Positions 22,861-24,272 of a stretch of DNA of 37,926 nucleotides are shown here, one piece after another (the stretch's first letter is position 1; every line of letters begins with the position of its first letter). A program made the position numbers and the translations under genes. Under the pieces are notes generated by a model. It worked only from the letters and a program-made list of their open reading frames with translations, was not told the origin of the DNA and searched no databases. This DNA comes from Vicinamibacteria bacterium (GTDB lineage: Bacteria; Acidobacteriota; Vicinamibacteria; Fen-336), in contig JAFGSN010000043.1 in assembly GCA_016934575.1 (NCBI GenBank), forward strand, positions 1 to 37,926. The letters run 5' to 3'.

Positions 22861-23031
22861 ATGACAGCGACGCCGCTGGATGGAGCCACGTTGGCGAGTA
22901 CGCTTCAGGAAGAGTCGCGGGAAGAAGTCGCGCGTCTCGGTCGTTTCGTTTTTGAAGAACACGGTCCAAGCCGCCAGGCTTCAAACGGCGGCGGATTGAG
23001 ATCGCTCCAGCAGTGTTACGCGTCGGCCTGA
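22861..23031 (+). CDS. Possible small ORF upstream of coaE
   Basis: ATG 22861 opens a 56-codon frame with an amphipathic, acidic N-terminal half (LQEESREEVARLGRFVFEEHGPSR) and a Ser/Gly/Gln-rich end. It overlaps the coaE start by 19 bases in another frame. No ribosome-binding site or known family is apparent. A translated leader or a chance frame are both possible. Confidence 0.22.
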   Translation: MTATPLDGATLASTLQEESREEVARLGRFVFEEHGPSRQASNGGGLRSLQQCYASA

Positions 23032-24272
23032 CCGGAGGAATCGCCTGCGGCAAGAGCCGCGTTCTGGAGCGCCTCGGACGCGCGGGCTGTCATTCGATTG
23101 ATCTCGATGAAGTTTCGCACGCCGTGATGGCGTCCGGCGGTTCCGCGCACGCGGAGGTCGTCGCGACGTTTGGCGACTCGATCGTGGGACCCGACGGCGG
23201 CGTCGACCGGCGCGCGCTGGCCGCGATCGTCTTCTCCGACGAATCCGCGCGCCTGCGGCTGAACGCGATCGTTCATCCTCATGTGCGTGCCGAGGAAGAG
23301 CGGCGCGTTGACGGCGCCTCCGTTGTTCGTGACGCCGTTATCGTCACGGACGGAGCGCTCCTGATCGAAGGCGGCGCGCATTTGCGATACGACCGCCTCA
23401 TCGTGGTTCACTGCGCTCCGGAGATCCAGATCGATCGTCTTATGCGAAGAGAGGGAATGGATCGTGGCCGGGCGCTGGATCGCGTCGCCGCCCAGATGTC
23501 CCAGGAGGAGAAACGTCGTTTCGCCAGCTTTGAGGTGGAGACTACGGGAAACTGCGCGCTGGCCGATCGGCGGATCGAGAAGATGGTCGAGCGCTTGTTC
23601 GAAATCAGCGCGGCGCGCCGCTCCTCGTTCACGTTGTCGCTTGCGCGAGCGATAGCGTGCCTCGGAAGCGGACCGACGACGGGACCGGCGGATCTCCGTC
23701 CGCTCGACGTGATGAACGAGATCGAAGCCGCGGGAGTCGTCGATCTCATGCGTCTCGCGCGGCGCATGCGGCCGCCTCACGACGGTCCATGGTACACGGC
23801 CGCGCGGAATGAGATACCGAAAGGGCCGGGCCCGGAGGCGCTCACGGCGCCACTGGTCGTCTGGATCCTAGCGCGTGGCCGCGCCGATCGTGAGCGCGTC
23901 GTCGCGGCCGCGGCGAGCCTGGCGCGCCTCACGCATCGCGATTCCAGCGCCATCGCCGGCGCGTGCCTTTTCGCCGAAGCGTTGTTCGAGGCGGCGACCG
24001 GCGACCGCGGCGGCCATCCTGAGTCCTGGACTTGCTGGAAAACAGAGTCGGAGAAATGGGGCGGCGGCGCGCCGCCGCCGCGCGTCGTTCATGCCGTCAA
24101 CGCCGCATGGCGACATATGATCGATGCGGGCGCGGCCGTTTCGGTCTGCGCGCGAATTCCTCACGCCGCGGAGTTGGCGGCCTGTGTCGTGGCGCTGCGA
24201 GCTGGAGATCCGTCGCGATCCATGGAATCGATCTGGAGCGCGCCGCTTCGCCGCGTCGGCCTGGGCCGCTGA
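23013..24272 (+). CDS. coaE: Dephospho-CoA kinase fused to an ADP-ribosylglycohydrolase-like domain
   Basis: CoaE uses ATP to phosphorylate the 3'-OH of dephospho-CoA, the last step of CoA synthesis. Residues 1-200 are a standard CoaE: P-loop LTGGIACGKS, DLDEVSHAVM, DGGVDRRALAAIVF, LNAIVHPHV, and RLMRREGMDRGRALDRVAAQMSQEEKRRFA. Typical CoaE is about 200 residues, yet this protein has 419. The extra part includes LARLTHRDSSAIAGACLFAEALFEA, the helix pattern of ADP-ribosylglycohydrolases (DraG/ARH). The metal-binding Asp motifs of that family are not visible, so this half may be a pseudo-enzyme. GTG 23013 is the only sensible start. Confidence 0.85.
   Translation: MLRVGLTGGIACGKSRVLERLGRAGCHSIDLDEVSHAVMASGGSAHAEVVATFGDSIVGPDGGVDRRALAAIVFSDESARLRLNAIVHPHVRAEEERRVDGASVVRDAVIVTDGALLIEGGAHLRYDRLIVVHCAPEIQIDRLMRREGMDRGRALDRVAAQMSQEEKRRFASFEVETTGNCALADRRIEKMVERLFEISAARRSSFTLSLARAIACLGSGPTTGPADLRPLDVMNEIEAAGVVDLMRLARRMRPPHDGPWYTAARNEIPKGPGPEALTAPLVVWILARGRADRERVVAAAASLARLTHRDSSAIAGACLFAEALFEAATGDRGGHPESWTCWKTESEKWGGGAPPPRVVHAVNAAWRHMIDAGAAVSVCARIPHAAELAACVVALRAGDPSRSMESIWSAPLRRVGLGR

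Follow-up and report, generated by a model that had tools for sequence, protein, structure and literature searches.

The window, by which we mean the whole stretch of DNA analysed (37,926 nucleotides of contig JAFGSN010000043.1 from a Vicinamibacteria bacterium), carries a coaE gene whose product continues into a second, C-terminal domain related to the ADP-ribosylglycohydrolases (ARHs). The gene and its parts were assigned as follows:

23013..24272, + strand: coaE with a C-terminal pseudo-ADP-ribosylglycohydrolase domain; single open reading frame of 419 codons with a GTG start.
23022..23546, + strand: dephospho-CoA kinase domain, residues 4-178, assigned from PF01121 (1.5e-43), fold matches to CoaE crystal structures and invariant residues.
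23625..24269, + strand: pseudo-ARH domain, residues ~205-419, all-helical, assigned from PF03747, hhalign, AlphaFold2 and PDB fold matches.
23925..23936, + strand: RLTH motif, R305-H308, the putative counterpart of the ARH LTH histidine in alignments.

The GTG is the earliest start codon in this open frame. The preliminary description had contrasted the 419 residues with the usual CoaE length of about 200; the single frame was confirmed, and CoaE proteins from the same order and class are indeed about 200 residues long. Its statement that the kinase half keeps the P-loop and family motifs also held. The Pfam family PF01121 matched residues 4-178 at 149 bits (cut-off 27), and the NCBIfam model TIGR00152 scored 122 bits (cut-off 65.6). 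The P-loop GLTGGIACGKS occupies residues 5-15, and the DxD motif, the catalytic motif of CoaE (PMC2765170), is D30-L-D32; the G, K and D positions of both motifs are invariant across the aligned relatives. The gene was the only coaE match in the source genome, which is 98.4% complete, so its product presumably supplies the cell's CoA. From these motifs and the single copy, the protein is predicted to phosphorylate the 3'-hydroxyl of dephospho-CoA.

The UPF0157/GrpB tail of the known CoaE fusion was the candidate expected first for the C-terminal half. It was rejected: Pfam gave no GrpB match, and NF002879 covered only residues 1-191, ending there with 146 bits (cut-off 215). PF03747 matched residues 250-369 of the window protein at 28.8 bits, or 30.9 bits with the tail alone (cut-off 26.2), the match being partial and spanning profile positions 106-215 of 287. 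When the tails of eight family members were scanned alone, all eight matched PF03747 at E-values up to 1, the best being 8.6e-10. A profile of seven tails was then compared by hhalign with 17 ARH-family proteins of the same class and scored 51.3 (92%, E 5.9e-7). Forty column shuffles reached about 18.6-18.7 at most and the reversed alignment 10.5, which argues that the match is not due to chance.

The full-length model had a pLDDT of 87.1 and a pTM of 0.86, and by the latter value the predicted relative placement of the two domains looks confident. The fold search with this model returned mainly P-loop kinases, with 6n39 as the top match, and the tail was therefore modelled separately. AlphaFold2, run on eight family tails, gave a confident model of the tail, which was all-helical (pLDDT 86.9, pTM 0.88). 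Its best eight PDB matches all had the ARH fold, at modest E-values (0.03-0.17, prob 0.77-1.00, TM 0.37-0.53 by query), and the ninth had a prob of only 0.13. The matches included DraG-type glycohydrolases, ARH3, a component of a toxin/immunity complex (6dre) and related structures. ARHs also ranked first in a viral structure library, with weak E-values. Among PDB sequences, a single-sequence search with the tail found no match, and only ARH3 matches short of significance (E 1.3-1.8) came from a profile search; a tblastn search of plasmids with the tail found none. The preliminary description had proposed a degenerate ADP-ribosylglycohydrolase-like domain and had named a lack of ARH-fold similarity as the result that would speak against it. 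Sequence profile, fold comparison and conservation agree that the tail is a shortened relative of the ARH/DraG fold.

The binuclear metal site of active ARHs is formed by E, [TS]DD[TS] and D[TS]D[TS]; an ARH with even one Mg ligand mutated is inactive (PMC6309922). As had been noted from the window protein, these Asp motifs are missing: [TS]DD was found in none of the 14 family tails, and the DxD of the C-terminal site occurs only as GGDPD in a single tail, that of genome G007. There it adjoins DLAGILVGTAVGA, which resembles the ARH helix GGDTDTNAAIAGALLGA; this pair is probably a relic and suggests that the tail's ancestor was an active enzyme. With [TS]DD absent from every tail and DxDx surviving only as one relic, hydrolysis of ADP-ribosyl bonds by the tail is very unlikely.

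The most conserved block of the tail is RLTH, which lies within LARLTHRDSSAIAGACLFAEALF, the helix-like stretch quoted in the preliminary description and present in the tail. In active ARH1 and ARH3 the LTH histidine touches the ADP-ribose pyrophosphate (PMC6309922), and the alignment suggests that H308 is its equivalent. RLTH is kept in 10 of the 14 members. W260, Y261, R288, D292 and R305 are invariant in an eight-member alignment. The N-terminal part of the tail is shortened relative to ARHs; the cleft segment NGxxMR is replaced by GPExLAxP, and the GDxxG/TDD segments are replaced or deleted. The adenosine- and distal-ribose-binding segments of ARHs were not recognisable in the tail. Four members stop before the last helices, the segment that contains the C-terminal metal site in ARHs.

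The fusion was present in all 14 searched genomes of one Vicinamibacteria family of the Acidobacteriota. The 13 other than the source genome are metagenome-assembled genomes representing nine other genera, and each encodes the fusion as a single open reading frame. Full-length members share 38-48% identity with the window protein, and three copies are cut off by the end of their contig. Shorter tails occur in genome G008 and in genus g6, all three genomes of which have also lost RLTH. Plain CoaE of about 200 residues, with no tail, was found in members of the same order (G014, G016) and in other families of the class. These tail-less relatives carry coaE at a corresponding locus, with folD in front of it and lapB or kdsC a short distance behind on the opposite strand, which leaves no room for a tail; in L017, for example, only 18 bases separate coaE from the next gene.

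Of 396 genomes searched across the phylum, only four matched the tail profile, and these four belong to the fusion-bearing family. When a single peptide pattern was run against 84,980 species genomes, a search that would miss strongly diverged tails fused to CoaE outside the phylum, it returned seven loci, all in genomes named as Acidobacteria or Vicinamibacteria MAGs. Presence throughout the family, absence elsewhere in the phylum and the exclusively acidobacterial scan loci make a single origin at the base of this family most likely. The trees of tail and CoaE agree only in part (distance correlation 0.57), which is not surprising given how short the tail is and how fast it evolves.

The surroundings of coaE differ in the source genome. 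Directly upstream (window positions 22861-23000, + strand) lies a folD relic, at the position where relatives carry an intact folD. Its N-terminal part of about 26 codons (MTATPLDGATLASTLQEESREEVARL) is 50% identical to the FolD of a relative (E 3e-4); after it, in a different frame, comes a C-terminal end resembling that of FolD, FLKNTVQAARL. The only other folD found in this genome, at G000:C136, is divergent (41-44% identity). In relatives a lapB-like TPR gene converges on coaE; in the source genome this gene is on another contig, at G000:C239:21889-23061 (L074, L078), adjoining kdsC- and kdsD-like genes; the 3' flank of coaE has thus been rearranged. Apart from the pseudo-ARH tail, nothing in the source genome matched PF03747, while most relatives also have free-standing ARH genes with intact metal motifs. 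A free-standing ARH-family protein lacking DD and DxD (IGATGE, SSPYSD) is encoded in the order-mate G015 (L048, 217-990, + strand) and is another possible ARH pseudoenzyme.

Three known systems provide a comparison. Actinobacterial CoaE-UPF0157/GrpB proteins (M. tuberculosis; 6n39 of M. paratuberculosis; NF002879) likewise begin with CoaE and end in an accessory domain of about 200 residues, but that domain is UPF0157/GrpB there and has the ARH fold here. DraG, ARH1 and ARH3 (PF03747) share with the tail a homologous central segment, comprising the LTH helix and the following helices, and the overall helical fold; unlike them, the tail is shortened at its N-terminus, lacks [TS]DD and DxDx and is fused to a kinase. 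Vertebrate ADPRHL1/ARH2 also has the ARH fold and has been retained despite the loss of metal ligands and activity (PMC7390403). In contrast to the tail, it is free-standing, full-length and vertebrate heart-specific and keeps one site Asp, and no close kinship is implied.

Simple Nei-Gojobori estimates, near saturation for distant pairs, gave tail dN/dS values of 0.32-0.68 over five pairs versus 0.21-0.30 for CoaE in the same pairs, the genus-level pair G011/G013 being too close for a useful CoaE value. Within genera the tail values were 0.32 (G003/G010) and 0.39 (G005/G011), rising to 0.68 in more distant pairs, and change accumulates about 2.8 times (two to three times) faster in the tail than in CoaE. 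The tail is under purifying selection and is constrained less than the kinase. Its faster evolution, the shortened tails of G008 and the g6 genomes and the lost motifs could also be those of a functionless passenger, fused by read-through and now eroding. We regard this as quite improbable, since the frame is intact through at least 148 tail residues in all 14 members, tail dN/dS is under 0.7 for each informative pair and under 0.4 for pairs from one genus, and the blocks GPWY, LWxLAR, ASLARLTH and WGG persist. Far less credible still is a frameshift or misassembly that joined two genes in the source genome. The rearranged flanks of coaE, with the folD relic and lapB elsewhere, would suit such an error, but the 13 other family genomes, which span nine other genera, have the same single frame, and this refutes it; the preliminary description had raised the case of relatives lacking the tail for this reason, and all 13 family relatives carry it.

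Among functional roles, we lean towards a structural one in cis, with the tail acting on CoaE as a pseudoenzyme domain; ligand sensing ranks next as an unlikely second, and partner binding follows with a still smaller chance. A structural role is favoured by the ARH-fold pseudoenzyme ADPRHL1 and by the M. tuberculosis precedent, where CoaE is insoluble when the UPF0157 domain is missing and a C-terminal GST can substitute for it (PMC2765170). An ADP-ribosylglycohydrolase-type domain would have been joined to the CoaE C-terminus, most likely once, in the family ancestor, and would then have lost its binuclear metal site and shrunk. The non-catalytic tail may now pack against the kinase and support its folding, stability or oligomeric state, in parallel with the unrelated UPF0157 tail of mycobacterial CoaE. 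Against this role, class-mates work with plain CoaE and show no obvious need for a folding aid. The RLTH histidine is conserved beyond the needs of a pure scaffold, though nearly all ARHs retain LTH, and the short, RLTH-less tail in g6 suggests a dispensable or shifting role.

The preliminary description had proposed an ADP-ribose- or CoA-like ligand and sensing of NAD/CoA balance, which is possible but was not supported. A sensing tail would bind CoA, dephospho-CoA, ADP-ribose, NAD or ADP with no hydrolysis and tune CoaE allosterically. It would make use of the counterpart of the pyrophosphate-contacting histidine (ARH1/ARH3, PMC6309922), and the five invariant residues could line a pocket. 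The ARH cleft segments are nevertheless replaced or deleted, four members have lost the histidine, four end before the last helices, and the UPF0157 tail, which is comparable in function, did not regulate its kinase in response to ligands: control through the tail by substrates, products and phospholipids was sought and excluded in M. tuberculosis CoaE (PMC2765170). Ligand binding or sensing is no more likely than a structural, folding or protein-contact role. Inactive enzyme relatives often recruit partner proteins, and the tail might bring CoaE to another protein, for instance an ADP-ribosylated one. The non-catalytic but important role of ADPRHL1/ARH2 (PMC7390403) and the match to 6dre are consistent with this, yet no family-specific gene lies beside coaE, the neighbours folD, lapB and kdsC being common to tail-less relatives.

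A literature search returned no paper naming dephospho-CoA kinase, ADP-ribosylglycohydrolase and a fusion together, and the CoaE-pseudo-ARH architecture appears to be undescribed in the literature searched. It joins two known families in a combination not found elsewhere here, with the second domain dead. After actinobacterial UPF0157, this is a second, independent case of a bacterial CoaE with a large C-terminal domain, which suggests that accessory domains have been recruited repeatedly to the C-terminus of CoaE. The two cases can be compared to learn whether tails of this kind serve to fold, stabilise or regulate the enzyme. The fusion also provides a bacterial ARH pseudoenzyme whose covalently attached partner is defined, making a non-catalytic role of the fold testable. 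It is rather doubtful that the tail is a repurposed ARH pocket for an ADP-containing cofactor, through which the final step of CoA synthesis would be regulated in cis; if it were, an ARH pseudoenzyme would control a cofactor kinase to which it is covalently joined.
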